NCBI RefSeq assembly: GCF_034424525.1
Contig: NZ_CP139979.1
Coordinates: 2,003,501-2,067,500 of the forward strand
Origin: Sphingobium yanoikuyae
Lineage (GTDB): Bacteria; Pseudomonadota; Alphaproteobacteria; Sphingomonadales; Sphingomonadaceae
Direction of reading: 5' to 3'
DNA: 64,000 nucleotides
Below are positions 41,621-64,000 of this stretch, piece by piece; positions within the stretch are counted from its first letter, which is position 1; every line of letters starts with the position of its first letter. Below the pieces are notes generated by a model. It had not been told where the DNA came from. It ran no database searches and saw only the letters and a list, made by a program, of their open reading frames with translations. The translations under genes were made by a program, and so were the position numbers.

Positions 41621-42589
41621 TCAGAAATTGGCGGCGACGATCTGTTGGCTGATGCTGCCGAAAGGGGATTTCTTGTTTCCAGATGCGACAAGCGAAACGC
41701 GATCGCCGAATCTGAGGAAAGATGTTTGGGGTTTACCTTGCTCGATCATCTCGATCGCGCGGCGTTCGGAGATGCAGCAGGAGCCGAGCGTTGCATAATC
41801 GGCATTGGACACGGTGCCCGACCCGATGATGGTGCCTGCAACCAGATCGCGCGTGCGGGCGGCATGGGCGACAAGCTCGTGAAAGCCGAATGCCATTTCG
41901 CCGCCATGGGGATTTCCGAACCAGGCGCCGTTGACATGAACCTCCAGCGGAAGGTGGACGCGGCCGTCCTGCCAGGCCTCGCCCAGTTCATCGGGCGTGA
42001 CCGCAAAGGGCGCCACTGAACAAGCCGGCTTGGCCTGAACCCAGCCGAACCCGGTCTTCATCTCGATCGGCGCGATCGCGCGCAGCGACCAGTCGTTGAT
42101 GAGCAGGACCAGCTTGATATGCGATAGCGCGTCCTGTGCGCTGGTGCCCATCGGCACGGCATCGGTAATGACGCCGAACTCGCCCTCGAAATCGATCCCG
42201 TCAGCTTCGCTGGGAAGTCGCACATCCTGCGTTCCGGACAGGAAGCGATCGGACAGGCCCTGATACATGAGCGGCCGGTCGGTCTCGATCGGCGGCAGGT
42301 TGAACGCCTTCTGCATCAGCTCGCCATGCTGCGGGAAAGCGGAACCGTCGAGCCATTGCCAGGCGCGGGGCAGGGGGGCGAGCAGCCGGCTTTCGTCCAG
42401 CACATCGCCTTCCCCCTGTTCCAGCCGGTCGGCCAGCCGGCGCAGCGCCGGTTCGACGCTGTCCCATCGCTCGATCGCCTGCTGCAGCGTGTCAGCAATG
42501 CCGTCCGCAGGCAGGCAGCGACGCGCATCGCGGGAGACGACGATCAGGCAGCCGTCCGGCTGGCCGTTGCTGAGGGTGGCAAGGCTCAT
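41621..42589 (-). CDS. Fumarylacetoacetate hydrolase (FAH) family protein
   Basis: 322 residues. ATG 42589 has GAGGA upstream and starts two bases after the cyclase stop; a longer open frame to 43078 is only a shadow of that gene. The C-terminal FAH fold shows IDFEGEFGVITD (metal-binding ExE), LLINDWSLRAI, SVAPFAVTPDELG and the GSGTVSNAD ending typical of the family. FAH enzymes hydrolyse C-C bonds or decarboxylate/hydrate diketo acids from aromatic ring cleavage. It is the last gene of the seven-gene operon, so it probably acts late on the ring-cleavage product. Confidence 0.87.
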   Translation of the reverse strand: MSLATLSNGQPDGCLIVVSRDARRCLPADGIADTLQQAIERWDSVEPALRRLADRLEQGEGDVLDESRLLAPLPRAWQWLDGSAFPQHGELMQKAFNLPPIETDRPLMYQGLSDRFLSGTQDVRLPSEADGIDFEGEFGVITDAVPMGTSAQDALSHIKLVLLINDWSLRAIAPIEMKTGFGWVQAKPACSVAPFAVTPDELGEAWQDGRVHLPLEVHVNGAWFGNPHGGEMAFGFHELVAHAARTRDLVAGTIIGSGTVSNADYATLGSCCISERRAIEMIEQGKPQTSFLRFGDRVSLVASGNKKSPFGSISQQIVAANF

Positions 42590-42591
42590 CT

Positions 42592-43383
42592 CTATTCCTC
42601 GAAGATTGCGACCGCGCGGGTCCAGCCGGCCGACGCGCCCTTGATCTTGTGCGGGAAGCAACTGACCATGAAGCCATGGCCGGGCAGGCTTTCCAGATTG
42701 TGCAGCTTTTCCAGGTGGCAATAGCCGATGTCGCGGCCGGCCTTGTGCCCTTCCCAGATCAGCGAGGTGTCGCCGGTTTCCTTCACCTTCTGCGCGGTAT
42801 AGCTGAACGGCGCATCCCAGGACCAGGCATCGGTGCCGGTGACGCGCACGCCCCGCTCGGTCAGGTAGATGGTCGCCTCGTATCCCATGCCGCAGCCGCG
42901 ATTGACATAATCGGGCTGGCCCAGCGCCGTGCCGGCCGCGGTGTTGACCAGCACGATGTCGAGCGGCTGGAGGCTGTGGCCGATGCGGCCCAGTTCCGCT
43001 TCGACATCGGTGGCGGTGACGACATAGCCATCGGGGAAATGGCGGAAGTCGAGCTTCACGCCGGGCTGGAAACACCATTCCAGCGGCACCTCGTCGATCG
43101 TGATCGATCGCTGCGGTTCGCCGTCGCGGCCGTCCATGGTCGGATGGAAATGATAGGGCGCGTCTAGATGCGTGCCGCTATGGGTGGTCAGCTTCACCCA
43201 TTCGGATGCCGCGAAACCGGCGCCGTCGGGCGTGTCCTGCGCCGTGACGCCGGGGAAGAACATCGCCAGCTCATGCGCGGTGTCGGCATGGGTCTGATAG
43301 GTGATTTCGGGCTTCAGAAACGGCGGGTCGCTGACCACATCGTTGCACAGCATGATCGACAGATCGACGAAGCGGCGGGTCAT
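42592..43383 (-). CDS. Cyclase / kynurenine formamidase-like hydrolase
   Basis: 263 residues of the cyclase (PF04199) superfamily. The metal-binding signature is intact: VKLTTHSGTHLDAPYHF (HxGTHxDxPxH). A further active-site block is GTDAWSWDAPF, and the C-terminus holds GFMVSCFPHKIKGASAGWTRA. Members hydrolyse cyclic amides or lactones, or formamides. Its start overlaps the upstream alpha/beta-hydrolase gene by four bases, and the FAH gene follows two bases later. In this setting opening of a lactone formed after ring cleavage is plausible, but the substrate is not known. Confidence 0.85.
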   Translation of the reverse strand: MTRRFVDLSIMLCNDVVSDPPFLKPEITYQTHADTAHELAMFFPGVTAQDTPDGAGFAASEWVKLTTHSGTHLDAPYHFHPTMDGRDGEPQRSITIDEVPLEWCFQPGVKLDFRHFPDGYVVTATDVEAELGRIGHSLQPLDIVLVNTAAGTALGQPDYVNRGCGMGYEATIYLTERGVRVTGTDAWSWDAPFSYTAQKVKETGDTSLIWEGHKAGRDIGYCHLEKLHNLESLPGHGFMVSCFPHKIKGASAGWTRAVAIFEE

Positions 43384-44537
43384 GCGGTCTCGCCTCCCAG
43401 CGTTTCGGCGAACCAGTCGGCGATGCAGTCGCGGCCATAGGCCATATTGTCCGCGCCGACATGTTCGACACCGCCTTCGCGCGGCGTGAAGATCCTCTTT
43501 TCGCGGCGGGGGGAATTGATGAGCTGATCATAGAGATCGTCGGCATAATCGACACTGATCTGGCGATCCTGCGCGCCATGGGTGACCAGGAAGGGCACCT
43601 TGATGCGATCCATATGGCCATTGAGGTTCATCGCTTCGGATTTGGCCAGGAAGTCCGCCTGATCCTTCGCCCCGAACGCCCAATGGACATGCGCCCAATA
43701 ATGGGGGACGGGGTTTTCGCCCTCGCGCGCCATGCGCTTGTCCTGCACTTCGCGCCAATTATGGTTGGCGCCCCAGACCGCGCCGCTGGCAAAGCGCGGT
43801 TCATAGGCGACGGCGCGCGGCGCGAAATGTCCGCCCAGCGAAATGCCGGTCAGGCCGATCGCCCGGCCATCGACATCGGGTTGCTGTTCCAGCCAGTCGA
43901 CCGCCTTGCTGGCCCAGCTTTCGCTGTGCGGATCGACGGGCAGATTCTGGAGCCGCAATGCTTCGCCTGAGCCGGGCTGGTCGACGCAGAGCGTGGAAAT
44001 GCCACGCCGCGCCAGTTCCTGCGGCAGGCGCGTCCAGTAGAGCAGTTCCTTGCAGCTATCGAGCCCGTTGCAGAAGACCACGACCGGCTTTCTTCCCTCG
44101 CCCTGCGCGCGGGTTAAGAGGGCGGGCATTGTTCCCGTCGCCAGCGGTATCTCGACCCGCTCGCGATTGATCCGGCCCAATACCGTCGACCGGTCAAAGG
44201 CTGCGCGTGCCTTGGCATAAGTCGCCTCCCGGCCCGGCGCGCCATGGCCCTGCATCCGCTCGGCGGTGATCAGATAGAGCGCGGCGCGTTCCATCTTGTT
44301 GGAGGCGGAGAAGAGCCGGCCCTGCGCCTCATCCTGCGCCGCCAGTTCCAGCAGCTTGTCGCCCATCGCAGCCCAGGCCTTCATGAACATGGGCGTGCCC
44401 GCATCGGCGCCGCTGTCGGCGGCGTCGCGGATCGGCTTGCACATGTCGATGATCTCGCCGAGCTGCGCGCCCGATTCCATCGCGATCGCGACCGACAGGT
44501 TCCAGATATAGTTGGGGAAATATTCGAACAGTGCCAC
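43380..44537 (-). CDS. Alpha/beta hydrolase, probable C-C bond hydrolase
   Basis: 385 residues: a helical N-terminal lid domain of about 140 residues, then an alpha/beta-hydrolase core. The nucleophile is S233 in GLTGISLGGHF, the acid lies in VTHGAQDRQI, and the histidine in GGVEHVGADN. FCNGLDSCKE forms the oxyanion region. This architecture recalls 2,6-dihydroxypseudooxynicotine hydrolase, which cleaves a C-C bond between an aromatic ring and an acyl chain. Such a reaction fits an aryl ketone aglycone. Overlaps the cyclase gene by four bases; the VOC dioxygenase ends 17 bases upstream. Confidence 0.8.
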   Translation of the reverse strand: MALFEYFPNYIWNLSVAIAMESGAQLGEIIDMCKPIRDAADSGADAGTPMFMKAWAAMGDKLLELAAQDEAQGRLFSASNKMERAALYLITAERMQGHGAPGREATYAKARAAFDRSTVLGRINRERVEIPLATGTMPALLTRAQGEGRKPVVVFCNGLDSCKELLYWTRLPQELARRGISTLCVDQPGSGEALRLQNLPVDPHSESWASKAVDWLEQQPDVDGRAIGLTGISLGGHFAPRAVAYEPRFASGAVWGANHNWREVQDKRMAREGENPVPHYWAHVHWAFGAKDQADFLAKSEAMNLNGHMDRIKVPFLVTHGAQDRQISVDYADDLYDQLINSPRREKRIFTPREGGVEHVGADNMAYGRDCIADWFAETLGGETA

Positions 44538-44554: not shown

Positions 44555-45457
44555 TCAAACTTCTGCAGCCTGGAACAGGCCCTTGTCGGGCTCGGGATGG
44601 GGCATGGTCTGGGGGCCGCCGACGCCGATGCCCCACTGGTCCATCACCTTGGGGCCGGGCACATGGACCTTGGGTTCATGGCGCTCGAAATCCACATATT
44701 CCAGCTCGGACGTATATTCGACCGCAAAGCCTGCCGGCGTGGTGAAGTAGCTGAACGTATTGTTCCCGGCCGTGTGGCGCCCCGGTCCCCAGCGAATGTC
44801 GGTGCCCTTCTGCCGCAGCCGGTTGATGCCGACCATCATGTCATCGACGCTCGGCATGTCATAGGCGACATGGTTGAGGCAGGGCGGTCCGGGCAGGATG
44901 GCGAGGCGGTGGTGCGCGCCGTTGCAGCGCAGGAAGCACATGAAATCGCCCAGCCAGTCCGACACCTTGAAGCCCAGCACGTCGCAGAACCACTGCACCA
45001 GAGCCTGATGGTTCGGCGAGTGCAGCACGATATGGCTGATCCGCTGCGGCACGCCTTCCCATTGCGCGATGGCGCGGGGCGCGCGCCGGGCGACATCGCT
45101 CGAAATCTCGAACGGCAGGCCGTCGGGCGAGAAGAAGCGGAAGCCATAGCCGCCGCCCAGCGTGTCGAGATCGTGCGGGGCGGATATGATCCGCGCGCCC
45201 GATGCCGCGATCCGATCATGCAGGGCGTCGACATCGGCCCGGCTGTCGGCCGCCAGCGCGATCACGTCGATGCGCTTGTCGGCCGCGGCACGCAGCCGCA
45301 CGACATAGGCTTCCTCGCCGCCATCGGCTGCGAAATGGACCATGCCATCCTTTTCGCCTGCCGCGACCAGCTTCCACTGGTCGGCATAAAAGGCGCGTTC
45401 GGCCTCCAGATCGGGCACGGCATAGCCGACATAGCGGATTTCGGTGACGCGGCTCAT
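44555..45457 (-). CDS. Two-domain VOC extradiol-type dioxygenase
   Basis: 300 residues with two tandem VOC modules, as in catechol 2,3-dioxygenase and BphC. The three metal ligands expected in the C-terminal module are present: H142 in RISHIVLHSPNH, H196 in CLNHVAYDM, and E247 in GFAVEYTSELEY. The H..H..E spacing fits an Fe(II) or Mn(II) extradiol enzyme. It would open a dihydroxylated ring with O2 in the cytoplasm. Its start overlaps the GH3 stop by four bases. The ring substrate is unknown; the gene context suggests a polyphenol aglycone. Confidence 0.86.
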   Translation of the reverse strand: MSRVTEIRYVGYAVPDLEAERAFYADQWKLVAAGEKDGMVHFAADGGEEAYVVRLRAAADKRIDVIALAADSRADVDALHDRIAASGARIISAPHDLDTLGGGYGFRFFSPDGLPFEISSDVARRAPRAIAQWEGVPQRISHIVLHSPNHQALVQWFCDVLGFKVSDWLGDFMCFLRCNGAHHRLAILPGPPCLNHVAYDMPSVDDMMVGINRLRQKGTDIRWGPGRHTAGNNTFSYFTTPAGFAVEYTSELEYVDFERHEPKVHVPGPKVMDQWGIGVGGPQTMPHPEPDKGLFQAAEV

Positions 45458-47838
45458 TCTGTCTGCTCCGGAACGGGTAGGGAAAGGTCAAAGGCGACGT
45501 CCGCGGCCGATCGGCCGGCGAACAGGCGGGGGGCGGCGATGTCGCGCCAGCCATCGCACCAATATTGCAGGCGGCGGCGCAGGATCGGGATGGCCAGTTG
45601 TCGCCGCTCGCCCGGTTCCAGATGGACCTTGGCAAAGGCGACCAGCGCCAGTTCGGGCTCGCGCCGATAGATCTGGATGACATCGCTGCCGGCGCGATCG
45701 GACTGGTTGTGCATCTGGGCACGGACGATGAGGCCACCGTCATGGCCGGCGACGATATCGACATCGTCCAGCGCGATGTCCGCATAGCCGAAACCGGCGC
45801 CCAGCGTGTGGCGCGGATCGGCCATGCCGCGATAGCCGATCCGCCGGCCCTCGTCATAGCGCAGGTCGCCCTTCTCGTCGGGCGTCAGGGCCAGGGCGGG
45901 ATAGTCGGCATCGGTGCGTGCGATCGAGACCGGCATGCGCCCGCCCGGCTCCCGGTCGCCGGCCAGAACCTGCGCGATCGCGGTGCCGAACGCCTCGCCG
46001 GGATACCAGGCGATCAGCAGCGCTGCCGCTTTCTCCTCCCAACTCGTGTCGAAGGCATGGCCGACATTGGCGACGATGATGGTGCGCGGATTGGCGGCGG
46101 TCACGGCATCGATCAGCGCCAGTTGATTGTCCGGCAGGCTGGTGTGGCTGCGGTCCTTGCTCTCGACGCTCGCGTCGGACGTTTCGCCGACCATCAGGAT
46201 GACGGCATCGGCCTGCTGCGCCAGTGCGACGGCACGGTCCAGCATCGCCTCGGGCGTGTCGGGGCGGCGTATGCCATACCATAGGCCGTGGACGCGGGCG
46301 GGCTGGTAGAGGAACTCGACCTCGATCGCATAGCTCTGCGCGGCCTTGAGGGATGCGCGGGCATCACGGGCATCGCCGCTCTTGAGCTTACCCATCACGT
46401 CCGACGAGGGAATGGCCTCGTCCAGCACCAGCAGGTCGACGCCATCGATACGCATCCGCACCGGCCCGGTGGCGCCCAGATGGAAGCTGTGATCGCCATC
46501 ATGCTCGGCCCGGAACAGCCCGCGCGCGACGATCCGGGCAGGGCGGTCGAGTGCGGCGATGTCGTCATGCACGCCGGCGAACCAGACCAGCGAGTTGGTG
46601 TCGCGCGTCTCGCTGTGGATCAGGCGGGCGTCGTCCGCCGGACCATCATAATAGTCGATCGTCATGCCATGGGCATAACCGTCGCCCAGATCGCGGGCAG
46701 GCGTGACCGGCATTGACGGCAGGCGCGGCTGAGGATCGACACCGGGTTCATAATCGACCCGCGCCTTGCCGGCATAGCGCGCCTGGATCGCCTCCAGCGG
46801 GCGCGCCGCATCCGGCGTCACGGCGATCTTGGCGAAGGTGCCACCCTGGTAACAGGGGGCGGCCGCATTGGGGCCGATGATGGCGATATGGCGGTCCCGA
46901 CCGGGCTCAAGCGGCAGGATCGCCTGTTCGTTGCGCAGCATCACGAAGCCAGCGGCTGCGGCCTCCACCAGCAGCGCCTGGGCATCTGCGCCCTGGATCG
47001 GAACATGCTTGTCACCCTTGAAGCGGCGGGCGGCGGTGGCGACCCGCGATGCGGCGTCCGTCACCCGCTGCCCGCTGATCAGCCCGTCGGCCAGCGCGGC
47101 GGCCGCCTTCGCGCCCAGGAAGCGGGCCGGCCCCGGCATTTCCAGATCCAGGCCGGCGGTCAGCGTTGCAACGGTCGAATGGGTGCCGAACCAGTCGCTC
47201 ATCATCACGCCGGGAAAGCGCCACTCGCTTTTGACGATGGTCGTGATGACATGATGATGCTCGGCGCACCATTGGCCGTTCAGCCGGTTATAGGCGGTCA
47301 GCATGCCGCCGACGCCGGCCTCGGCGCACAGTTCGAAGGGAAGGAGATAGATTTCGCGCAGCGTGCGTTCGCTCACCACCGCGTTCATCCGATCGCGATC
47401 GGTCTCGCTGTCGTTGCAGACCAGATGTTTGGCGACCGATGCGGTGCCGGTGCTTTGCAGGCCGCTGGCCCAGGCGGCACCCAACAGGCCGGCGAGCAGC
47501 GGCTCCTCCGAATAATATTCGAACGCCCGGCCGGCGAGCGGGCTGCGCGCCAGATTGACATTGGGGGCAAGGACCATGTCGACGCCCATGCGGATCGCCT
47601 CGCCACCGACCAGCGTGCCGACGCGCATGTTGAGGTCGATGTCCCAGCTGGCGCCCAGCGCGGTCGGGCAGGGGGTGAGCAGGGCAATGTCACGTTCGTC
47701 CACGCGTCCGCTGGCAATGCCCATCGGCCCGTCTGCCATCGCCAGCGACGGGATGCCCGCTTCAGCATAGCCGACCGTGGTCCACATGGTGGCGCCGGCA
47801 CTCATCGCCAGTTGCTGGTCGATCGTCAGGCCGGACAT
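45454..47838 (-). CDS. GH3 beta-glycosidase with PA14 insertion
   Basis: 794 residues. The N-terminal barrel has DGPMGIA, APNVNLARSPLAGRAFEYYSEEP, KHLVCNDSETDR and the nucleophile D215 in GVMMSDWFGTHS. The second domain follows (GFVMLRNEQAILPL), with a PA14-like insertion around 380-500 (GLFRAEHDGDHSFHLGATGPVRM). A fibronectin-like C-terminal domain ends the protein. There is no signal peptide, so it works in the cytoplasm on imported glycosides. Its place inside a ring-cleavage operon suggests it frees a phenolic aglycone from an O-glucoside. It overlaps the FMN reductase gene by 13 bases and the VOC gene by four. Confidence 0.9.
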   Translation of the reverse strand: MSGLTIDQQLAMSAGATMWTTVGYAEAGIPSLAMADGPMGIASGRVDERDIALLTPCPTALGASWDIDLNMRVGTLVGGEAIRMGVDMVLAPNVNLARSPLAGRAFEYYSEEPLLAGLLGAAWASGLQSTGTASVAKHLVCNDSETDRDRMNAVVSERTLREIYLLPFELCAEAGVGGMLTAYNRLNGQWCAEHHHVITTIVKSEWRFPGVMMSDWFGTHSTVATLTAGLDLEMPGPARFLGAKAAAALADGLISGQRVTDAASRVATAARRFKGDKHVPIQGADAQALLVEAAAAGFVMLRNEQAILPLEPGRDRHIAIIGPNAAAPCYQGGTFAKIAVTPDAARPLEAIQARYAGKARVDYEPGVDPQPRLPSMPVTPARDLGDGYAHGMTIDYYDGPADDARLIHSETRDTNSLVWFAGVHDDIAALDRPARIVARGLFRAEHDGDHSFHLGATGPVRMRIDGVDLLVLDEAIPSSDVMGKLKSGDARDARASLKAAQSYAIEVEFLYQPARVHGLWYGIRRPDTPEAMLDRAVALAQQADAVILMVGETSDASVESKDRSHTSLPDNQLALIDAVTAANPRTIIVANVGHAFDTSWEEKAAALLIAWYPGEAFGTAIAQVLAGDREPGGRMPVSIARTDADYPALALTPDEKGDLRYDEGRRIGYRGMADPRHTLGAGFGYADIALDDVDIVAGHDGGLIVRAQMHNQSDRAGSDVIQIYRREPELALVAFAKVHLEPGERRQLAIPILRRRLQYWCDGWRDIAAPRLFAGRSAADVAFDLSLPVPEQTE

Positions 47839-48428
47839 GCGGCACCCTCCATGGCGAAGTGCATGATCTGCCGCGCCTGTGCGCGGACCGCATTGGCGAC
47901 GCCTTCATCGCACAGCGTGCCGTCGGCATCGAAGGGGCGCTGCTCGACCGAGTTGACCGCGACCCCAACCGGCGTCGGCCAGCCGCGCATGGCATGGATG
48001 ACATCGCGCAGCGCCGACAGGGTGGTGCCGCAGGCCTGCCAGCCGGCCGCCGTGACGATCAGGCCGACCGGACGACCGTCGAAATAGACCCGGCTGTCGC
48101 CGCGCAGATCTTCCAGCAGGTCGATCGCATTCTTCACCAGCCCGGAATAGCCGCCATGATAGCCCGGACTGCCGATGACGATGCCATCGGCGGAACGGAT
48201 GGCATGGACCAGCGCGCGTTCCTCGGCCGTGCGGTCGGGATGCTCGGGATTGAAATGAGGCAGGCGGGCGAGGGCCGGGCCGTCGAACATCGTCGTCTCG
48301 GCGCCCAGATGCTCGCATTCCTTCAGGACCGCACGCACGATCCGTTCGCTGGAAGATGCCTGGCGGAACGTGCCGCCTAGGCCGACGATCCGCTTCGGGC
48401 GGGCGCCAAGATGACCGGACATGTCCAT
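47826..48428 (-). CDS. NAD(P)H-dependent FMN reductase
   Basis: 200 residues with a flavodoxin-like fold. KRIVGLGGTFRQASSSER matches the phosphate loop of the FMN_red family, and IVIGSPGYHGGYSGLVKNAIDLL is its second FMN motif. It would supply reduced flavin to a flavin-dependent monooxygenase. The luciferase-like gene directly upstream (55 bases) is the obvious partner, together forming a two-component monooxygenase. Overlap with the GH3 gene shows they share one transcript. Confidence 0.87.
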   Translation of the reverse strand: MDMSGHLGARPKRIVGLGGTFRQASSSERIVRAVLKECEHLGAETTMFDGPALARLPHFNPEHPDRTAEERALVHAIRSADGIVIGSPGYHGGYSGLVKNAIDLLEDLRGDSRVYFDGRPVGLIVTAAGWQACGTTLSALRDVIHAMRGWPTPVGVAVNSVEQRPFDADGTLCDEGVANAVRAQARQIMHFAMEGAACPA

Positions 48429-50410: not shown

Positions 50411-50923
50411 TCAGGCGTCGGGGTTGGCGAGCCGCAGCCCCGCGCCATAGAAGCGGACGATGCCGGGGCCATCCGCCTGCACGCACAGCTGGAAACCGAA
50501 GCGGGTGGTGATCGCCGGACTGATCGGCAGGTCGGTGCGCAGTCGGTTGCACGCCGGATAATAATGCCGCCATAGCTCGGGCGGATCGAACGGCTCGGGT
50601 GTGCCGACGAGTGGCTGGTTGGGCGCGCACAGATGCTGGCGCTCCATCCCGCCATGATGGACGCAGACCCAACTGAGGATCGCGCCTTCTTCGGCCTCCC
50701 ACAGCAGCGACACCTGATCGATCAGGCTGCCGGCAGGAAGCTGGAAGGGGAAATGGAACCAGATCTTGCGGTCCGGTCGGATGCGGAAGCTCGACGAGAA
50801 GCCGCGATGGGAGCCGCGCCCCTGCGACCAGGGCTGGTCATCCACGACATCGATCCAGTCGGCGCCGCTTTCCTGCAATTGCACGGCGGCCGGGGCCAGC
50901 CATAGTTCCTGGGGCAAGCTCAT
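50411..50923 (-). CDS. Conserved-looking protein of unknown function in the deglycosidase operon
   Basis: 170 residues, family not recognised. It is rich in tryptophan and aromatic residues (ELWLAP, ADWIDVVDDQPWSQGRG, KIWFHFPFQLP, WEAEEGAILSWVCVHHGG), suggesting a beta-sandwich. Histidine and cysteine pairs are present but no known catalytic motif. There is no signal peptide or membrane segment. It is the fourth gene after MFS, deglycosidase alpha and beta, 69 bases behind beta. A lectin-like or accessory role in glycoside recognition is possible, without direct evidence. Unlikely to be a chance frame given its position and composition. Confidence 0.6.
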   Translation of the reverse strand: MSLPQELWLAPAAVQLQESGADWIDVVDDQPWSQGRGSHRGFSSSFRIRPDRKIWFHFPFQLPAGSLIDQVSLLWEAEEGAILSWVCVHHGGMERQHLCAPNQPLVGTPEPFDPPELWRHYYPACNRLRTDLPISPAITTRFGFQLCVQADGPGIVRFYGAGLRLANPDA

Positions 50924-53698: not shown

Positions 53699-53798
53699 TC
53701 TATTGGTTGTGGCGGGGCCTGTCAATCCGCCGTCGGGCGCCCGGCAATACGCAATGCTCCGTAGCCCGGCGACCGCTGAAGCCGCCGGGCATAAGGCT

Positions 53799-56617: not shown

Positions 56618-56653
56618 TTTATGGGGTCACAAAGACCCATGGAGAGGCAGAAT

Positions 56654-57304
56654 ATGGGACGTGACAGCCCCCCACAGATACCGCCAACCGAAAGCTGGCT
56701 GCCCGGCAAGGCGGAGCGCCGCCAGGTGCTCGGCGGGGCGCTGCTGCTCGGCGCCTTGGTCGGCGTCCCGCTGCGCGCCTGGCATCAGCAGGTCGAGGGC
56801 CAGGCCGGCGGCGCCAGCGATTCGGAAAGGCTGCTGCTCGCCCGTCTGTCTGACCTGGTGATCCCGGATAGCGATACGCCCGGTGCCGTTGCCGTCGGCG
56901 TTCCCGCCTTTGTCGAACGCGCGCTGCTGCACGGACTGGACGATACCGCGCCCGAACCGGCCGGAAAGGTGCGGATGGGCGATGATCGCGGCGGCCTGCC
57001 CGTGCTGGATCAGGTCATGCGGGATCTCAACGGTCGTGCCGCCATGCCCTTCCTCGGGCTCAAGCCGGACCGGCAACGCGGCGTTCTGGAAGCCTATGAT
57101 GCCGATGCCTTTGGCGGCGAGCAGGGCGATCATCCCTGGAAGAAGATCAAGGCGCTGATCCTGACCGGCTATTACACGTCGGAAGTCGGGGCGAGCCGCG
57201 AACTGCAATATGAACTGGTGCCCGGCCGCTGGGATCCGAACCTCCCTCTGCCGGCCCATAATCGATCCTGGTCGAGCGACTGGACAGCGGTGGATTTCGG
57301 ATGA
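56654..57304 (+). CDS. Small (gluconate 2-dehydrogenase subunit 3-like) subunit of a GMC dehydrogenase, Tat-exported
   Basis: 216 residues from ATG 56654, which follows GGAGAGG by six bases. A twin-arginine signal is visible (KAERRQVLGGALLLGALVG). The mature part has SERLLLARLSDLVIPDSDTPGAVAVGVPAFVE, the hallmark of subunit 3, and ends HNRSWSSDWTAVDFG. In this family the small subunit carries the Tat signal for the complex and stabilises the flavoprotein. Its stop overlaps the GMC start by four bases. A cytochrome c subunit, usual in such complexes, is not present in the window. Confidence 0.87.
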   Translation: MGRDSPPQIPPTESWLPGKAERRQVLGGALLLGALVGVPLRAWHQQVEGQAGGASDSERLLLARLSDLVIPDSDTPGAVAVGVPAFVERALLHGLDDTAPEPAGKVRMGDDRGGLPVLDQVMRDLNGRAAMPFLGLKPDRQRGVLEAYDADAFGGEQGDHPWKKIKALILTGYYTSEVGASRELQYELVPGRWDPNLPLPAHNRSWSSDWTAVDFG

Positions 57305-58983
57305 GCATGGATTTTGACGCGATCGTCGTGGGGTCGGGCATCACCGGCGGGTGGGCCGCAAAGGAACTCACGCAAAAAGGTCTAAAGGTGCTGATGATCG
57401 AGCGGGGACGCATGATCGAGCATGGCACCGATTATGTGACCGAGACCAAGGCGCCGTGGGAAATGGAGTTTCGCGGCGAGGGCGATGCAAAGCTCTATGC
57501 CGAGGAATATGCGGTGCAGCGCCTCAACCGGCACTTCACCGAATTTACCCAGAATCATTTCGTCAACGACAAGGACAATCCTTACGCCGTTGCCGAAGGG
57601 ACCAAGTTCAACTGGTGGCGCAGCTATCAGATGGGTGGCCGATCGCTGACCTGGGGACGGCAAAGCTATCGCTGGTCCGACTATGATTTCGGCGCCAACA
57701 AGGCTGATGGCCATGGCACTGATTGGCCGATCCGCTATGCCGACCTTGCCCCTTGGTATGATTATGTCGAGGATTTCATCGGCGTGTCCGGCGCGGCGGA
57801 GGGGCTTGCCTCGCTGCCCGATGGCAAGTTCCTGCCACCCATGGCGCTCAATGTGGTCGAACAGCATGTGCGCGAGGCGATCGCCGAGCGCTGGCCCGAC
57901 CGCTGCCTGACCGTCGGTCGCACCGCCAATCTGACAGCGCCCAAGGAAGGGCGGGCGCCCTGCCAGTTCCGTTCCATCTGTGCGCGCGGCTGCTCCTATG
58001 GCGCCTATTTCAGCACGCAAAGCTCCACCCTGCCGGCGGCACAGGCGACCGGACGGCTGACGGTCGTGACCGATGCGCTGGTGGAAGCGGTCGATTATGA
58101 TCCCGCCACGAAGAAGGCGACCGGCGTGCGCGTCCTTGACGTCAAGACCGGCGCGCGGACGCGCCATACCGCGCGGCTGGTCTTCCTCAACGCCAGCGCC
58201 TTCAACAGCGTCCACATCCTGCTCCGTTCCCGGTCGGAGGCGCATCCCAATGGCCTTGCCAACAGCAGCGGCGTGCTTGGCACCCATGTGATGGACCATG
58301 CTTCGACCCTGTCGACCATGGCGATCATGCCGGGCTTCGACGGTCGCACGACCTTCGGCAATCGGCCGACCGGCGTCGTCATCCCTCGATTCCGCAATCT
58401 CGACCGGCAGGAAGGTGATTTCGTGCGCGGCTATAGTTTCCAGGGTGGGGCGCTGCAGAGCGGCTGGACTGCGGCCAAGCGGGCGGCCGGCATCGGCGCC
58501 GATTACAAGGCAAAGACCCGCGAAGTCGGTCCCTGGCGCATGGTGTTCGTCGGCTTTGCCGAAAGCCTGCCGCGCGTCACCAACCGGTTGACGCTCGATC
58601 CGGTCAAGCTCGACCCGCAGGGCCTGCCGATGCTCAACATCCATTTCGAGCATGGCGACAATGAACGCCGCGCGCTGGCGGACGCCAAGAAGGAAGCTGC
58701 CGCGATGATGGAGGCTGCCGGCGGCCATGTCATCATGGGCTTTGACGAGCCCGGCGCGGGCGGTTCGGCGATCCATGAAATGGGCGGCGCCCGCATGGGT
58801 CATGACCCGGCCAGTTCGGTCCTCAACCGCTGGAGCCAGGCGCATGACGTGTCCAACCTGTTCGTGACGGATGGTGCGCAGATGAGTTCGTCTGCCTGCC
58901 AGAACCCGTCGCTCACCTATATGGCGCTGACGGCGCGGGCCTGTGACCATGCGGTATCGCTGATGAAGGAGGGCGCACTGTGA
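57301..58983 (+). CDS. GMC-family FAD dehydrogenase, probable glycoside 3-dehydrogenase
   Basis: 560 residues. The dinucleotide fold is FDAIVVGSGITGGWAAKEL. A Cx5Cx3C motif (C221, C227, C231 in CQFRSICARGC) matches the 3Fe-4S site of bacterial FAD glucose dehydrogenases. Catalytic residues are the histidine in IHEMGGARMG and the asparagine in CQNPSLTYMALT. It has no signal of its own and would travel with the Tat-bearing small subunit. Known relatives oxidise C3 of glucosides, giving 3-keto-glycosides, the substrates of C-deglycosidases encoded upstream. The SnoaL gene overlaps its stop. Gluconate/2-keto activity is the main alternative. Confidence 0.85.
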   Translation: MSMDFDAIVVGSGITGGWAAKELTQKGLKVLMIERGRMIEHGTDYVTETKAPWEMEFRGEGDAKLYAEEYAVQRLNRHFTEFTQNHFVNDKDNPYAVAEGTKFNWWRSYQMGGRSLTWGRQSYRWSDYDFGANKADGHGTDWPIRYADLAPWYDYVEDFIGVSGAAEGLASLPDGKFLPPMALNVVEQHVREAIAERWPDRCLTVGRTANLTAPKEGRAPCQFRSICARGCSYGAYFSTQSSTLPAAQATGRLTVVTDALVEAVDYDPATKKATGVRVLDVKTGARTRHTARLVFLNASAFNSVHILLRSRSEAHPNGLANSSGVLGTHVMDHASTLSTMAIMPGFDGRTTFGNRPTGVVIPRFRNLDRQEGDFVRGYSFQGGALQSGWTAAKRAAGIGADYKAKTREVGPWRMVFVGFAESLPRVTNRLTLDPVKLDPQGLPMLNIHFEHGDNERRALADAKKEAAAMMEAAGGHVIMGFDEPGAGGSAIHEMGGARMGHDPASSVLNRWSQAHDVSNLFVTDGAQMSSSACQNPSLTYMALTARACDHAVSLMKEGAL

Positions 58984-59810
58984 GGCATCTCGCGCCCATC
59001 CTTGGTCTTGCGCTGGTGGCGCTGGCGCCCATGGCCGTCGCAAAGTCGGCTGACAATCGCACGATCGTCGATGATTTCGTCGATCGCTTCTATCGGCAGC
59101 GTGACGTTGCGGGCGCCTTCGCGGCCCATGTCGCGCCCGGTTATGTCCAGCATAATCCCGGCCTGCCCGATGGCCCGGACGCGGCTGTGGCGGCGCTGGC
59201 GCCGATGTTCGCCCGGCCCGATGCCCGGTTCGAGGTGAAGCATCTGCTGGTCGACGGCGATCTCGCGCTCGTCCATCTCTTCGGACAGGGCAAGCCGGGC
59301 ACGGCCGGGGCGGCGGTCGCCGATCTCTATCGGCTGAAGGACGGCAAGGTGGTCGAGCATTGGGATGTGCTGCAACCGATCGCGGAGGGCAGCAACCCGC
59401 TGGCGATGGCGGATGCGCCGCCCAGTGATCGCAGCCACACCGCCACCAATCGCCGGGCCTTCTCCCAGTTCATCGACCTGCTGTTCGCCAGGGGCGATGT
59501 GGAACAGGCCTATCGGCGCTTCGCCGCGCCGGATCTGATCCAGCATAACAGCCGCATGGGGCAGGGTCGCGATCAGGCGATCGCGGCAATCCGGGCGCTT
59601 CATGCGATGCCGGGCGCCAGCTTCACCGTGCAGCGCATCCTGGTCGATGGCGATTTCGCCGCCGTCCATTATCGCGGCAAGCTGGCAGCGGATGACAAGG
59701 GCGCGGCGGTCGTCGAGATATTCCGCTTCGACAAGGGACGGATCGTCGAACATTGGGACATGCTGCAGGGCGTGCCGGAAACGTCGCGCAACGCCCATCC
59801 GATGTTCTGA
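58980..59810 (+). CDS. Exported protein with two tandem SnoaL/NTF2-like domains
   Basis: 276 residues from GTG 58980, which overlaps the GMC stop (GTGA). A signal peptide (MRHLAPILGLALVALAPMAVA) is followed by two similar halves, about residues 25-135 and 155-270. Matching motifs are VAPGYVQHNPGLPDGPDA / FAAPDLIQHNSRMGQGRDQ, LLVDGDLALVHL / ILVDGDFAAVHY and GKVVEHWDVLQP / GRIVEHWDMLQG. SnoaL-like proteins include cyclases, hydrolases and binding proteins. Here it is co-translated with the dehydrogenase and placed in the periplasm, so it may act on or bind the keto-glycoside. The function is unknown. Confidence 0.83.
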   Translation: MRHLAPILGLALVALAPMAVAKSADNRTIVDDFVDRFYRQRDVAGAFAAHVAPGYVQHNPGLPDGPDAAVAALAPMFARPDARFEVKHLLVDGDLALVHLFGQGKPGTAGAAVADLYRLKDGKVVEHWDVLQPIAEGSNPLAMADAPPSDRSHTATNRRAFSQFIDLLFARGDVEQAYRRFAAPDLIQHNSRMGQGRDQAIAAIRALHAMPGASFTVQRILVDGDFAAVHYRGKLAADDKGAAVVEIFRFDKGRIVEHWDMLQGVPETSRNAHPMF

Positions 59811-59872: not shown

Positions 59873-61258
59873 TCAGCCGTTGCGGGCGGCGATGTCCCGC
59901 CGGATCGCTTCATGGCGACCGTCCATTGGCCAGAAGGCAATGATGATGATCTGGACGATCATGATCGCGATCGGCCAGCCATAATAGGACCAGCGTATCG
60001 CCGCGCGGGCGCCGTCGCTGACCGCCTTGGGATCATAGCCGGCGCCGGCCAGCACATAGGCGATGATCGCCGTGCCGATCGCCATCCCGACCTTGGTTGA
60101 CAGGCTGATGCCCGACGACAGCAACCCCTCGTTGCGGGTGCCAAAGCGCCATTCATGATAGTCCACCGCATCGGCGGCCATGGTGAAGATCGCCGTCATG
60201 GTCAGGCTGATCAGAATCGCGGCGAAGAGGAACAGGCTTAGGAAAAGTCCATGCTGTGCCTCGATGAAGGGCAGCAGCATATGCACGCCGATCGCGACCA
60301 GCAGCGCCGCGATGCAGCCCCTGCGGATGCCGGTCCGCTTGAAGAGGAAAGGCGCGATAAAGGCGCTCAGCAGCAGGGTGCCCGATACCGCCGGCAGCAG
60401 GATACCGATCATCCAGGGCGCTTTCATCACCTCGATCGCGAAGAAGGCGGTGACGGAGATCACGCAGCCGAAGCGCAGGAAATTGAGCGTGCAGAAGAGG
60501 AAGGTGACCAGCCAGGCCCGGTTGCGCACCATCGCGCCGACATGCGGCCAGATCGCGCCGCCGGCCGGCGCCTCGTCATGATGCCGCTCCCTGCAACTGA
60601 CGAACAGGTTGAACAGCGCCGCCAATGTCAGCACCGCAAAGAGCAGTGCGACCAGCGCAAAGCCAAGCCGTTCATTGCCGCCCCCCAGCACGCCCACCAG
60701 CGGCATGGTCGCGGCCGTCGCCAGAATGACGGAGACCGACGTGCCGATCGCGCGCGCGCTCCCCAATTGCATGCGGCTGCCATGGTCGCTGGTCATCATC
60801 GGCATCAGCGCGGAAAAGGGCACGGCCAGGAAGCTGTAGAGAATGCCCAGCAGCGAGAAGGTGACATAGGCATAGGCCAGCTTCGCCCCGGTCGATCCGT
60901 CGATGGTGGTGAAGGTCAGCACCAGCAGGATCGAGAAGGGCAGGGCGGTGAACAGGAAATAGGGCCGGGTCCGCCCCCACCGCGTCCGCGTCCGGTCGAC
61001 CAGGATGCCCACGCCCAGGTCGATGCCCGCATCGAACAGCCGTGACAGCAGGAACAGCGTGCCGACCGCCGCCGCCGGCAATAGCGCCACATTGGTGTAG
61101 AAATAGAGCAGGAAGGCGCCGACCGCATTCCAGCTGAGGCCGCAGGCGAAATCGCCCAGCCCATAGCTGATCTTTTCCCAGGGGCGCAGATGGCTGTCAT
61201 CTTCGCTGTCAACGATCCGGGGGCTGCGCATCGGCTGTTGTGCAACGGCTGTCGTCAT
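59873..61258 (-). CDS. GPH-family (MelB-like) glycoside:cation symporter
   Basis: 461 residues with 12 membrane segments. It has the GPH opening WEKISYGLGDFACGLSWNAVGAFLLYFYTN and LFDAGIDLGVGILVDRTRTRWGRTRPY, the family's second signature. TMAADAVDYHEWRFGTRNEGLLSSG matches the MelB C-terminal motif. These symporters import glycosides, pentosides or hexuronides with Na+ or H+. It lies downstream of a sugar isomerase gene and a TonB receptor in the same direction, an outer-to-inner-membrane import set. The stop is immediately beside the shared terminator. Confidence 0.88.
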   Translation of the reverse strand: MTTAVAQQPMRSPRIVDSEDDSHLRPWEKISYGLGDFACGLSWNAVGAFLLYFYTNVALLPAAAVGTLFLLSRLFDAGIDLGVGILVDRTRTRWGRTRPYFLFTALPFSILLVLTFTTIDGSTGAKLAYAYVTFSLLGILYSFLAVPFSALMPMMTSDHGSRMQLGSARAIGTSVSVILATAATMPLVGVLGGGNERLGFALVALLFAVLTLAALFNLFVSCRERHHDEAPAGGAIWPHVGAMVRNRAWLVTFLFCTLNFLRFGCVISVTAFFAIEVMKAPWMIGILLPAVSGTLLLSAFIAPFLFKRTGIRRGCIAALLVAIGVHMLLPFIEAQHGLFLSLFLFAAILISLTMTAIFTMAADAVDYHEWRFGTRNEGLLSSGISLSTKVGMAIGTAIIAYVLAGAGYDPKAVSDGARAAIRWSYYGWPIAIMIVQIIIIAFWPMDGRHEAIRRDIAARNG

Positions 61259-61322: not shown

Positions 61323-62090
61323 TCAGAGGCCCGTGGCCGCGCGTGCCTGCGCGATCGATTGATCGGAGGGAAGGGTAGGTTGATATTCCAGCCCGATCCC
61401 GCCGTCATAGCCGAGCGCGCGGAGCTGCGCGACCACGGCCGGCCAGTCGATCGTGCCGGTGCCCGGCTCGTTGCGGCCGGGATTGTCGGCAAACTGGACA
61501 TGCTGGACCAGATGGATACGGCCCTTGAGCACCGCTTCCATATCCTCGCCCATCACGTTGGAGTGGAAGACGTCATAGAGCAGGCGCAGATGGTCGCTGC
61601 CCACTTCCTCGATGATGTCGAGCGCCAGCGTGGTGCTCGACAGGAACATGCCGGGATGGGAGACGATGGTGTTGAGCGGTTCCAGCACCAGCACGACGCC
61701 GGCTTCTTCCGCCAGGGCGGCGGCCTGCTTCAGCGCCTTGACCGCCTCGGCCCTCTGCTCCTCCAGGCTCACCCCTTCCCGGGTGAAGCCCGATGCCACC
61801 ACCAGCGGGGGGCGGCCCAGTGTCTTGGCGGTTTCCAGCGTTGCGGCGACGGCTTCCAGAAATTCGCCATGCTGGGCGGGGTCGACCAGGCTGCGGCGCG
61901 GACCGATGCAGAAGCTGGTGAGTTTGACGCCCGTCTCGTCGAGCGCAGCCCTGATCAAATCGATCGGCTTGTCGTCCCACAGGTGAAATTCCACGGCCGA
62001 AAGCCCGGCATTCTTCGCCGCGTGGATGCGGTCGGCGAAATCGGGCGCGCTGTCCTTGAAAAGCCATTCGATACAGGCGGACAGATACAT
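61323..62090 (-). CDS. Hydroxypyruvate isomerase-like TIM-barrel sugar isomerase/epimerase
   Basis: 255 residues from ATG 62090 (AAGGAG seven bases upstream). It is in the xylose isomerase-like superfamily, closer to Hyi/IolE than to the deglycosidase alpha subunit. Motifs: NAGLSAVEFHLWDD, LVLEPLNT (metal-binding glutamate), RLLYDVFHSNVMGED (aspartate and histidine), HVQFADNPGRNEPGTG (histidine), and GLEYQP (glutamate). It probably isomerises a keto sugar released in the pathway, for example 3-keto-glucose. That step is inferred. Lies between a TonB receptor and a GPH symporter gene. Confidence 0.8.
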   Translation of the reverse strand: MYLSACIEWLFKDSAPDFADRIHAAKNAGLSAVEFHLWDDKPIDLIRAALDETGVKLTSFCIGPRRSLVDPAQHGEFLEAVAATLETAKTLGRPPLVVASGFTREGVSLEEQRAEAVKALKQAAALAEEAGVVLVLEPLNTIVSHPGMFLSSTTLALDIIEEVGSDHLRLLYDVFHSNVMGEDMEAVLKGRIHLVQHVQFADNPGRNEPGTGTIDWPAVVAQLRALGYDGGIGLEYQPTLPSDQSIAQARAATGL

Positions 62091-62208
62091 TCCTCTTCTC
62101 CTTGGTCGCCCCCTTGTTGTCGGGGACTGGGTCCGGTCGAAGAAGAAGAGGCGGCCCCGCCGGCCTAGCCGGGGCCGCCTCATTTTCACGAAGCTTAGAG
62201 GCGTCCGA

Positions 62209-64000
62209 TCAGAAGCGATAGGTGCCCCGGACGCCATAGGTGCGCGGCGTGCCGTATATATAGTTGATCAGCATGGTCCCGCCGGCATCGACATAGTTGA
62301 CGAAGCTGTAGGGCCGGTAATTCTCCAGGTTGCGGACATAGGCCTGCACGCTCAGCTTGTTGCCCGGCGCGCTATATTCGAGGCTCAGGTCCGTCTGGGT
62401 GAACGCCTCCTGCAATTCGGCGCGATTGTTGAACGGCTGCAGATAATAATCCGACTTGAAGCGGCTGAAGACGCTCGCGGTGATCTTGTGATCGCCAATG
62501 TGGAAATCATGGTCATAGCCAAGCGCGATCGTCCATTTGGGTGACTGCACCGGGCGATTGCCGCTGAGGTCGAAGGGCTGGTTGCCGGGCGTCGACGGAT
62601 CGCTGTCGTTGATCGAACCGGTCAGGCCCAGCAGCGATGTCTGGAACGCCGTCAGTTCGGCGTTCAGATAGTTGACGGTCGCCGTGAAGCGATCGTTGCG
62701 CGACAGCAGGACCGTGGTGTCGGTCTCGATGCCCCAGACCCGCGACTTGCCGGCATTGACCACCTGGCTGCCGACATTGGTGTCCAGGAACACCGGGATC
62801 TGCTGGTCGCGATAGTCATAATAGAAGGCCGAGGCGTTGAACTGGATCGTGCGGTCGGCAAAGCTGTTCTTCGATCCGATTTCATAGGCGGTCAGCTTTT
62901 CCGAACCGAAGGAGCCGACATTGTCGAAGCCGCCGGCCTTGTAGCCGGTGCTGACCTTGCCGTAGATCAGATGGTCGCGCGACGGATTATAGTCGATGCC
63001 CAGCGTCCAGGTAGGCTGGCTTTCCTTGAAGCGCGGATGCAGTTCGGTCCGGGCGATGCTGGTGTCGTCGATTGCCGGCGGATTGGGGCCGCGCCCGAAT
63101 TGCGGGCCGTAATTATAATAGAGGCCCTTCTTCTTGTCGTGGGTGTAGCGGATGCCGCCGGTGACGCTCAGCTTGTCGACGACGATTGGCACCGTCGCCT
63201 GGGCAAAGCCGGCGATCGAGTCATTCTTCACATAGGGGCGATAGAAATAGTTGAGATAGCTGCCGCCCGCCGCCAGCGGCAGGAACAGGCCCTGCGCCAT
63301 ATACTGGTTCTCATGGAAGTAGAAGGCGCCGACCTGATAGATGATGCCGCCATTCTCGCCGCCTGACAGGCGCAGTTCATGGCTTTGCGTCTTCGAATTC
63401 TTCTCGTAATTCTGGATGAAGATGGTCGGCACATAGCCGTTGAGCGGCTGGCTGATATCCGACTTCACGTCGCGATAGCCGCCAATATAGCTCAGCGTGC
63501 CGATCGAGCCGACGTCGATGTCGAGCCGACCACGGATCGCATATTGCCTGATCTTGGTCGAACCCAGATCGCCCAGCGGGAAGGATTTGCGCGGCGGATT
63601 GAAGTCGAGATTTTGCGGCACGCCGCCATTTTCAAATTCCGGTGTCGAGGGGATGACGTCAACGATGCCGGAGGCATAGCCAGGGTTGGCAAGGACGCCA
63701 TTTGTCGCGATCACCTGGCCATATTGCGCCACGCCCGTGGTGTTCACGTCGACAAATTCGCCGGCGACATAGGCGCGGATGCCCTCGGCCGGTTCGGCAT
63801 AGAAGGACAGGCGCGCGGCATCGGTATTGCCGGCACTGCCACGGCCTGCCGGGCCATTGTTGAAATAGCCGTCATGCTCGTTGTGCATGCCGCTGGCGCG
63901 AATGGCGAATTTCTCGCCCAGCGGAATATTGACCGCGACTTCGCCGGTGATCGTGTCGTAATTGCCGTAGCTGCCGGTGGCATAGCCGGAAAATTCCCCG
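62209..64000 (-). CDS. TonB-dependent outer-membrane receptor, N-terminus beyond the right edge
   Basis: At least 597 residues are present; the frame is open to the window edge (GEFSGYATGSYGNYDTITGE reads through it), so an internal ATG at 63888 is not the start. Barrel features: GSIGTLSYIGGYRDVKSDIS, LRLSGGENGGIIYQVGAFY, the TonB receptor block HLIYGKVSTGYKAGGFDNVG, and the C-terminal GVRGTYRF. This subtype differs from the two DIVVTG receptors and resembles the iron-complex/small-molecule group common in sphingomonads. It would take the glycoside through the outer membrane for the isomerase and symporter genes downstream. Signal peptide and plug lie outside the window. Confidence 0.9.
   Translation of the reverse strand, partial: GEFSGYATGSYGNYDTITGEVAVNIPLGEKFAIRASGMHNEHDGYFNNGPAGRGSAGNTDAARLSFYAEPAEGIRAYVAGEFVDVNTTGVAQYGQVIATNGVLANPGYASGIVDVIPSTPEFENGGVPQNLDFNPPRKSFPLGDLGSTKIRQYAIRGRLDIDVGSIGTLSYIGGYRDVKSDISQPLNGYVPTIFIQNYEKNSKTQSHELRLSGGENGGIIYQVGAFYFHENQYMAQGLFLPLAAGGSYLNYFYRPYVKNDSIAGFAQATVPIVVDKLSVTGGIRYTHDKKKGLYYNYGPQFGRGPNPPAIDDTSIARTELHPRFKESQPTWTLGIDYNPSRDHLIYGKVSTGYKAGGFDNVGSFGSEKLTAYEIGSKNSFADRTIQFNASAFYYDYRDQQIPVFLDTNVGSQVVNAGKSRVWGIETDTTVLLSRNDRFTATVNYLNAELTAFQTSLLGLTGSINDSDPSTPGNQPFDLSGNRPVQSPKWTIALGYDHDFHIGDHKITASVFSRFKSDYYLQPFNNRAELQEAFTQTDLSLEYSAPGNKLSVQAYVRNLENYRPYSFVNYVDAGGTMLINYIYGTPRTYGVRGTYRF

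Follow-up and report, generated by a model that had tools for sequence, protein, structure and literature searches.

A predicted locus for aryl C-glucoside use in Sphingobium yanoikuyae, built around a C-glycoside deglycosidase

Introduction

C-glycosyl flavones are widespread plant products of high chemical stability, and little is known about what becomes of them in soil. A stretch of 64,000 nucleotides from Sphingobium yanoikuyae (the window; G000:C1:2003501-2067500, where G000 is the window's own genome of 5.5 Mb) raises the question whether a sphingomonad can use such compounds through one locus. The window encodes both subunits of a predicted C-glycoside deglycosidase (CGD) close to a GMC flavoprotein dehydrogenase, transporters and a ring-cleavage operon, and an earlier reading of the letters alone (the sequence-only reading) had proposed that these genes form a complete catabolic system for an aromatic C-glycoside or aryl glycoside. 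According to our analysis, the locus is likely to let the cell feed on aryl C-glucosides, most probably of the flavonoid type, with the GMC dehydrogenase oxidising the sugar, the CGD cutting it off and the ring operon opening the aglycone. A literature search that covered few subscription papers revealed no sphingomonad C-glycoside pathway among the matches listed, although an earlier notice of the locus is possible, and the native pairing of a GMC dehydrogenase with a CGD was not found in the literature searched. The locus is thus best described as an established enzyme pair with predicted functions in a well-supported and widespread proteobacterial context, for which no description was found.

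The deglycosidase pair

Gene families were assigned by Pfam and NCBIfam profile searches of the window proteins, complemented by sequence searches against solved structures. The two subunits are encoded side by side:

50993..51385, minus strand: CGD beta subunit (PF19906, CGDB, 144 bits)
51398..52408, minus strand: CGD alpha subunit (377 bits to 8qvc_A)

The cut-off for CGDB is 27.6 bits, and the beta subunit also matches the solved partner chains of CGD complexes (79 bits to 8qvc_B and 70 bits to DgpB, 7bvr_B). The alpha subunit matches nine distinct solved sequences, eight of them at 110.7 to 377.3 bits with 8qvc at the top, and 4ovx at 21.6 bits; the eight were recognised as CGD complexes from the partner-chain matches of beta and from entry codes in PMC10628242. 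Scores against the PuCGD, EuCGD and AgCGD2 entries were 140, 111 and 111 bits, respectively. In AgCGD2, the metal is bound by E147, D179, H269, K271 and E305, while H149 and E307 form the catalytic pair (Mori et al., PMC8563793). All seven residues are found in the window alpha subunit as E144, H146, D176, H260, K262, E296 and E298 with matching +2 spacings, and they are invariant across this protein and 67 relatives, bar one Q at position 260. The relatives are called open reading frames (ORFs) of the alpha cluster from 73 loci, which were obtained by a pattern scan of named genomes and are represented by stretches of 6-21 kb; one ORF outside 300-480 aa was dropped, and some loci have no called alpha.

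The genes at 50993-52408 encode a genuine CGD pair of the established kind, whose cleavage activity is predicted. The sequence-only reading had placed a paired CGD here and had named, as the case against it, a plain sugar epimerase next to a 130-residue protein other than CGDB. The pairing is borne out by the CGDB score and by the search against solved complexes (377 bits to 8qvc; 140 and 70 bits to 7bvr), and the epimerase is ruled out by the Pfam match, the matches to CGD complexes and the seven residues. A preference for C6 or C8 that had been guessed from the spacing of active-site residues was dropped, because the numbering in PMC8563793 makes the C6-type MiCGD longer than AgCGD2 at this place, whereas the window protein is shorter.

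A second, diverged alpha subunit with 30% identity to the window alpha is encoded at L097:16240-17688 and in 18 further loci of L078-L150. It keeps all seven catalytic residues in 19/19 cases. In 16 loci it is accompanied by a beta that has likewise diverged (29%; in L097 it scores 53 bits with CGDB), and 11 loci have another GMC protein (c26) within the stretch; the pair may be a second eliminase, acting on C-glycosides or O-glycosides. The window also contains a 708-aa open frame at 50942-53068 (plus strand), antisense to alpha, beta and part of the neighbouring transporter gene. Similar antisense frames were called in L078, L087, L107 and L111 and are most likely by-products of a high G+C content.

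Gene content of the locus

The genes named in the sequence-only reading (CGD alpha and beta, the GMC dehydrogenase with its small subunit, GH3, ThuA, a Hyi-like isomerase, a TonB receptor, three MFS/GPH transporters and a seven-gene ring operon) are all present, each above a Pfam cut-off; a SnoaL-type protein at 58980-59810 had gone unnamed. In addition to the CGD pair, the features are:

40110..41468, plus strand: IS256/Mutator-type insertion element, left border of the locus (transposase 40214-41410, PF00872, 423 bits)
about 40110-40137 and 41441-41468: terminal inverted repeats of this element
41621..42589, minus strand: FAA hydrolase (FAH), 322 aa, last gene of the operon, full length compared with relatives (PF01557, 112 bits; PF18288)
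42592..43383, minus strand: putative cyclase/metal hydrolase (PF04199, 120 bits)
43380..44537, minus strand: alpha/beta hydrolase (ABH) resembling C-C hydrolases (57 bits to 2jbw)
44555..45457, minus strand: two-domain extradiol dioxygenase (EDO; PF00903)
45454..47838, minus strand: GH3 glycosidase with PA14 insert (PF00933, PF01915, PF07691)
47826..48428, minus strand: NAD(P)H:FMN reductase (FMNR; PF03358, 91 bits)
48484..49596, minus strand: luciferase-like flavin monooxygenase (LLM), candidate aglycone hydroxylase (PF00296, 134 bits)
49715..50398, plus strand: TetR-type regulator, divergent from the LLM operon (NCBIfam TetR-family matches below their cut-offs; matched in 56/73 alpha loci)
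50411..50923, minus strand: 170-aa ORF of cluster c30 (no Pfam or NCBIfam match)
52412..53725, minus strand: MFS transporter 1, 3 bp from alpha (PF07690, 143 bits)
53799..54746, minus strand: ThuA-like protein, signal-peptide-like start by eye (PF06283, 134 bits)
55049..56548, plus strand: MFS transporter 2, EmrB/DHA2 type (PF07690; TIGR00711, 195 bits, cut-off 230)
56621..57304, plus strand: dehydrogenase small subunit with twin-arginine-like signal (PF13618, Gluconate_2-dh3, 82 bits)
57301..58983, plus strand: GMC flavoprotein dehydrogenase large subunit, proposed C3 oxidase (PF05199/PF00732)
58980..59810, plus strand: two-domain SnoaL protein of the GMC operon, signal-like start (PF12680, 101 bits, two stretches)
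59873..61258, minus strand: GPH-type sugar:cation symporter (TIGR00792, 315 bits, above cut-off)
61323..62090, minus strand: Hyi-like TIM-barrel sugar isomerase/epimerase (PF01261, 145 bits)
62209..64000 and on to about 64509 past the window, minus strand: TonB-dependent receptor (PF00593)

The ring operon runs LLM - FMNR - GH3 - EDO - ABH - cyclase - FAH on the minus strand; successive genes are spaced by +55, -13, -4, +17, -4 and -1 bp (FAH counted from 42592); the likely FAH start at 42589 makes the last gap +2. Likely start codons internal to the listed ORFs were also found for LLM (49596), ThuA (54746) and Hyi (62090). The GMC gene overlaps the small-subunit gene by 4 bp and is itself overlapped by the SnoaL gene by 4 bp. 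The TonB receptor appears in the stretch of L028 as a 766-aa ORF with a signal-like start; to its right follow an MFS-like gene and N-termini that, by eye, resemble those of housekeeping genes. The c30 ORF recurs between CGD and TetR in some relatives (8 loci; 45-49% in L174, L177, L178 and L180).

Elsewhere in the window, a TonB receptor gene is followed by an overlapping sulfatase gene (21184-26554; PF00884, 205 bits) in an apparently unrelated uptake/desulfation unit, and genes for an MFS carrier, two enolase-superfamily proteins, an OprB porin and a D-2-hydroxyacid dehydrogenase (32406-39006) resemble a sugar-acid catabolic cluster.

Recurrence of the neighbourhood

The 73 alpha loci stem from Sphingobium, Novosphingobium, Sphingomonas, Blastomonas, Erythrobacter, Nitrospirillum, Niveispirillum, Azospirillum, Ideonella, Pseudomonas, Pantoea and Paraburkholderia. 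Presence and absence were counted with tblastn (1e-10), because the simple gene caller picks an antisense ORF over the CGD in some loci including the window. CGDB was matched in 72 loci, TetR in 56, GPH and Hyi in 54 each, MFS transporter 1 in 52 and TonB in 44, followed by GH3 and GMC (39 each), LLM (37), the small subunit (36), MFS transporter 2 (31) and FMNR (26). ThuA (22), SnoaL (18), EDO (15), ABH (13), FAH (10) and the cyclase (9) were less frequent. These counts are rough, because some matches are distant (35-36% for GMC in three loci) and contig ends truncate several of the stretches; moreover, L078, L079 and L081 are probably the same genomes as G369, G330 and G367, which are discussed below, and are not independent of them. 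The recurring neighbours around alpha exceed what would be expected by chance.

The GMC dehydrogenase as partner of the CGD

CGDs act on sugars that have been oxidised at C3, and the GMC dehydrogenase is the proposed oxidase. Its nearest solved relatives are fructose and glucose dehydrogenases, which match at 132-137 bits over nearly the full length. PurA and CarA oxidases belong to a pyranose-oxidase-like group of GMC proteins. An assignment to this type was rejected, as the similarity to 8qve and 7qf8, which we take to be CarA-kind structures, is weak (34-38 bits; 8qve reaches 38 bits over residues 425-555), confined to the C-terminal residues 420-555 and far below the fructose/glucose dehydrogenase scores. 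Source names for the GMC relatives, as for those of LLM, were generic only among the matches listed (120 rows each). The gene (PF05199) shares an operon with that of a small Tat-type partner (PF13618), as is the case for GlycDH- and Lac-type 3-dehydrogenases. By motif alone, 19/26 called members of the small-subunit family carry RR before a hydrophobic stretch; against solved structures, the small subunit gave just three matches, all to designed ankyrin proteins (E 0.03-0.06). Rhizobium GlycDH, co-expressed with its TAT partner, oxidised puerarin and nothofagin in vitro, the latter selectively at C3 (Bitter et al., PMC10628242), and the proposed chemistry therefore has a precedent.

The link between the GMC dehydrogenase and the CGD was examined in 94 genomes of the genus and 298 of the family, six of which belong to the genus; the family search scored at most 4 (GMC) and 6 (LLM) candidates per genome. 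CGDB is above its cut-off in 16/94 genus genomes, strongly in 14 and weakly in two (34 and 39 bits). A GMC protein of at least 72% identity occurs in 12/94, and all 12 are among the 14 with a strong CGDB (p=1.9e-13; 3.8e-12 against all 16). In the family, CGDB is found in 17/298 genomes, GMC at 68% or more in 14 from 11 genera and LLM in 8 from 8 genera, and all 14 and all 8 also have CGDB. GMC paralogues of 48-59% in the genus show no such link (p=0.2), and none of the six family genomes whose best GMC lies at 54-59% has CGDB. The cluster may spread as a block; however, the paralogue control and four genus genomes, in which GMC and CGDB are 74, 293 or 435 kb apart or sit on different contigs, speak against pure hitch-hiking.

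The ring-cleavage operon

The EDO scores 74-80 bits with TIGR03211, TIGR02295 and TIGR03213, in each case under the cut-off, and its best solved match (3b59, 489 bits) is an entry without a specific function. The best solved relative of ABH is the 2,6-dihydroxypseudooxynicotine hydrolase 2jbw (57 bits). This hydrolase has also been named as a relative of Variovorax locus 59470, the disruption of which left daidzein degradation unaffected (PMC11069340).

The gene order around EDO was compared in 30 loci, namely the top match from each of the 30 genomes that matched best, the window's own included and two of them from other genera. ABH follows EDO in 30/30. The gene in front of EDO on the same strand encodes an FAD_binding_3 monooxygenase (c17, with FAD-monooxygenase domain) in 23/30, at a distance of 15-47 bp in 21 loci and of 309 and 927 bp in two; GH3 takes this place in 4/30 (the window, G364, G369 and G367), and neither was matched in 3/30. 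c17 is absent from the window, and a search of the window's genome with c17 of L091 gave 25% at best; c17 of L162 (41% to that of L091) reached 29% on the best c17 stretch of the window's genome. The new element of this operon is the block of LLM, FMNR and GH3, which occupies the place of the usual FAD hydroxylase in the window and three relatives.

The predicted structure of LLM (mean pLDDT 77, from 14 sequences) gave bacterial luciferases, RslO1 of Streptomyces (7bip) and other flavin monooxygenases as first PDB matches in Foldseek (15-21% identity). RslO1 acts on polyphenolic polyketides. The modelled fold is that of a bacterial luciferase-type monooxygenase and fits a flavin-dependent oxygenation, with a substrate that the fold does not name. 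LLM and FMNR may together serve as the aglycone hydroxylase, an assignment that we make tentatively. LLM may also have a role other than ring hydroxylation, because in G310 and G340 the LLM-FMNR-GH3-CGD cluster is separate from the c17-EDO operon. In G310 (L163), a small-subunit/GMC pair precedes the c17-EDO-ABH-CYC-FAH operon on the same strand, with two MFS genes between them. A relative of LLM with one in-frame TGA was seen in a fragmented genome (G025:C108:7645-8745).

It could be argued that two unrelated islands adjoin: one for the sugar, with the CGD and GMC genes (49.7-64.5 kb), the other an operon for cleaving flavonoid rings in general (41.6-49.6 kb). EDO of at least 66% identity occurs in 31/94 genus genomes, namely 14/14 with a strong CGDB and 17/80 others (p=1.5e-8; 1.2e-6 against all 16; all 94 are inferred to be within the 198 genomes searched, of which 114 without a match are unlisted). 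It lies within 16 kb of CGDB in 8/14 strong-CGDB genomes. Its presence in the 17 genomes without a strong CGDB and its match in just 15/73 alpha loci would fit separate islands. However, LLM, the first gene of the ring operon, is confined to genomes with CGDB: it has relatives in 10/94 genus genomes, 10/10 with CGDB (p=1.1e-10; 8/8 in the family), and in 9/10 it is no more than 4 kb away from CGDB. Moreover, LLM-FMNR-GH3 directly adjoins EDO and ABH in the window, G315, G364, G367 and G369; in the longer stretches of these four relatives, the order LLM - FMNR - GH3 - EDO - ABH - (cyclase) - FAH stands beside the CGD, and G315, G364 and G369 keep a separate c17-EDO-ABH operon as well. Relatives of LLM and GH3 are also found near the CGD in loci of Nitrospirillum, Azospirillum, Pseudomonas and Pantoea. 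Two unrelated islands are therefore very unlikely.

The fate of the sugar and the left border

In the levoglucosan pathway, the eliminated sugar is hydrated by a sugar-isomerase-like protein, and 3-keto-glucose is then reduced by a Gfo/Idh/MocA enzyme (PMC7676230); the same hydration and reduction have been reported for Agrobacterium on preliminary evidence (PMC10628242). Genes for a Gfo/Idh/MocA protein (c13) and an AP_endonuc_2 protein (c7) follow FAH in G315, G364 and G367 and GH3 in G330, while the available stretch of G369 is too short to show them. When searched with these genes, the window gave no match to c13 or c7; the IS256-type element is found there instead, about 150 bp beyond the full-length FAH gene, and c13 and c7 were likely lost at this border. 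The description of the system as complete was consequently too strong, since near relatives continue with Gfo/Idh and the hydratase-like AP_endonuc_2 gene where the window has the insertion element, and the usual FAD hydroxylase is missing as well.

Homologues of c13 (54-56%) and c7 (69-70%) are located in the window's own genome at C1:4.54 Mb, 2.5 Mb from the locus. This second locus (L171, G000:C1:4542324-4551272) comprises genes for Gfo/Idh, an AP_endonuc_2 protein, a Hyi-like protein (29%) and a GMC protein (49-50%), resembles the Agrobacterium GlycDH/OGE operon in gene content and could finish the breakdown of the sugar. The Hyi-like protein of the window matches 3ngf at 72 bits and the 3-keto-D-glucoside 4-epimerase 6wn6 at 54 bits. 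It was also considered as an AtOGE-type eliminase and rejected, as AtOGE (8bvk) was not among the matches listed (32 distinct solved sequences, E<=0.01).

The Gfo/Idh genes of the close relatives and of the window's genome would also fit a different oxidation step, in which a cytoplasmic Gfo/Idh/MocA enzyme of the DgpA type oxidises the CGD substrate and the GMC pair acts on O-glycosides or free sugars; this GMC is missing from three family genomes with CGDB and from two strong-CGDB genus genomes. On the other hand, the close GMC clade occurs only together with CGDB, even when unlinked, a GMC/TAT pair oxidises C-glycosides in vitro (PMC10628242), and the step catalysed by Gfo-type enzymes in comparable pathways is the reduction of 3-keto-glucose (PMC7676230). 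We regard this alternative as unlikely.

The locus could also serve O-aryl glucosides, with the GMC dehydrogenase as oxidase, the CGD as an O-glycoside beta-eliminase, GH3 hydrolysing the rest and C-glycosides as side substrates at most. GH3 sits inside the ring operon, PuCGE cleaves 3-keto-phlorizin besides C-glucosides (PMC10628242), and LacABC-type dehydrogenases act on salicin (PMC9007349). In contrast, alpha keeps the His/Glu pair and beta is present, as in characterised CGDs, the Hyi-like protein lacks AtOGE among its listed matches, and the same genome has L171 as a separate locus with the Agrobacterium GlycDH/OGE content (Gfo/Idh, two isomerase-like genes and GMC). A main role in O-glucoside use is thus quite unlikely.

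Proposed pathway

For the use of aryl C-glucosides, the activities, compartments and order of steps are proposed as follows. The TonB receptor would take the compound across the outer membrane, and the Tat-exported GMC/small-subunit dehydrogenase would oxidise C3 of the glucosyl residue at the outer side of the inner membrane. The MFS/GPH carriers would import the 3-keto-glycoside, from which the CGD, a metal enzyme, would remove the aglycone by beta-elimination. The resulting 2-hydroxy-3-keto-glucal would be hydrated and reduced to glucose, probably with the help of genes elsewhere in the genome, and GH3 would remove O-linked glucose where present. LLM and FMNR may prepare the aglycone ring, which EDO, ABH, the cyclase and FAH would then open and shorten as a polyphenol ring. 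It is possible, if doubtful, that the sphingomonad cell plan differs from known ones in that the 3-keto-C-glycoside is made outside the cytoplasm by the Tat-exported dehydrogenase, imported and cut by the CGD, and in that the LLM pair, which is not related to FdeE, has taken the place of the usual hydroxylase of flavonoid rings in front of EDO, as an activator dedicated to the aglycones of C-glycosides.

Several points weigh against C-glucoside use as proposed. The GH3 enzyme points to O-glucosides too, and CGDs can also cleave 3-keto O-glucosides, as reported for PuCGE (PMC10628242). The Fisher p-values overstate independence, because the genomes are related. Two genus genomes with a strong CGDB (G301 and G380) and three family genomes with CGDB lack this GMC. 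Since EDO occurs in 17 genus genomes without a strong CGDB, the ring module is not restricted to C-glycosides, and the 15/73 alpha loci with an EDO match, within the available stretch, are few. Finally, a GMC/LLM locus in G325 (L160, G325:C1:326000-345900) contains SnoaL-GMC-SSU-MFS2, TonB, Hyi, GPH, MFS1, TetR and LLM-FMNR-GH3 without a CGD pair; the sole CGDB match of this genome is 422-435 kb away, beside a diverged alpha (42%).

The idea of one joined pathway therefore stands in part: the CGD is real, the GMC dehydrogenase is tied to it by co-occurrence and the ring operon is linked to it in several genomes, while we infer the substrate, the site of oxidation and the order of steps. If correct, one genetic unit would combine C-C cleavage of the sugar with ring cleavage, both here and in the related loci of sphingomonads, Azospirillum, Nitrospirillum and other proteobacteria. 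These loci would supply a proteobacterial CGD with a native oxidase that can be tested and, judged by gene context, a luciferase-like monooxygenase that acts on the aglycone.

Comparison with known systems

The PurABC and CarABC systems of Paenarthrobacter No. 37 and Microbacterium 5-2b, soil Actinomycetota that use C-glycosides as carbon source, resemble the window in the oxidation of C3 by a flavoprotein, the subsequent cleavage by a CGD and the homologous alpha and beta subunits (PMC12724307, PMC8563793). They differ in that their oxidase uses O2, whereas the window GMC has fructose/glucose dehydrogenases as its closest solved relatives and comes with a Tat-type partner; neither TonB uptake nor a ring operon is described for them in the available parts of these papers. 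Homologues of PurABC, with PurA as an O2-using oxidase, have been reported in Pseudomonadota (Kumano et al., PMC12724307). The DgpABC/Dfg systems of gut Bacillota share the CGD subunits (140 and 70 bits to 7bvr) but rely on NAD-dependent oxidation by Gfo/Idh/MocA proteins, and the Gfo/Idh gene of the window's relatives (c13) is unmatched in the window.

GlycDH/TAT of Rhizobium GIN611 and the GlycDH/AtOGE/AtHYD/Gfo operon of Agrobacterium share with the window a flavoenzyme with a small partner, of TAT type by motif in the window, and the logic of elimination, hydration and reduction (PMC10628242). In Agrobacterium, however, the native eliminase is OGE, which is unrelated in sequence and specific for O-glycosides, while the window has a CGD (PMC10628242). 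LacABC of Caulobacter follows the logic proposed here of an exported glycoside 3-dehydrogenase, which is periplasmic in that system, but serves lactose and works with DUF1080 proteins (PMC9007349).

In the A-ring cleavage of naringenin by Herbaspirillum (fde) and of isoflavones by Variovorax (ifc), a glyoxalase-type dioxygenase is combined with an ABH like the 2,6-dihydroxypseudooxynicotine hydrolase, as in the window (PMC11069340). These systems use an FAD monooxygenase (FdeE/IfcA; PMC11069340), and an FAD hydroxylase precedes the dioxygenase in most EDO relatives, whereas the window has LLM, FMNR and GH3 there. They further differ in the IfcD-kind cupin, for which no gene was seen among the genes of the locus. 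By its domains and operon layout, the predicted GlycDH-kind dehydrogenase would be a new element as the native partner of a CGD. The CGD itself is of a known kind, and its combination with uptake, oxidation and ring cleavage appears to be new.

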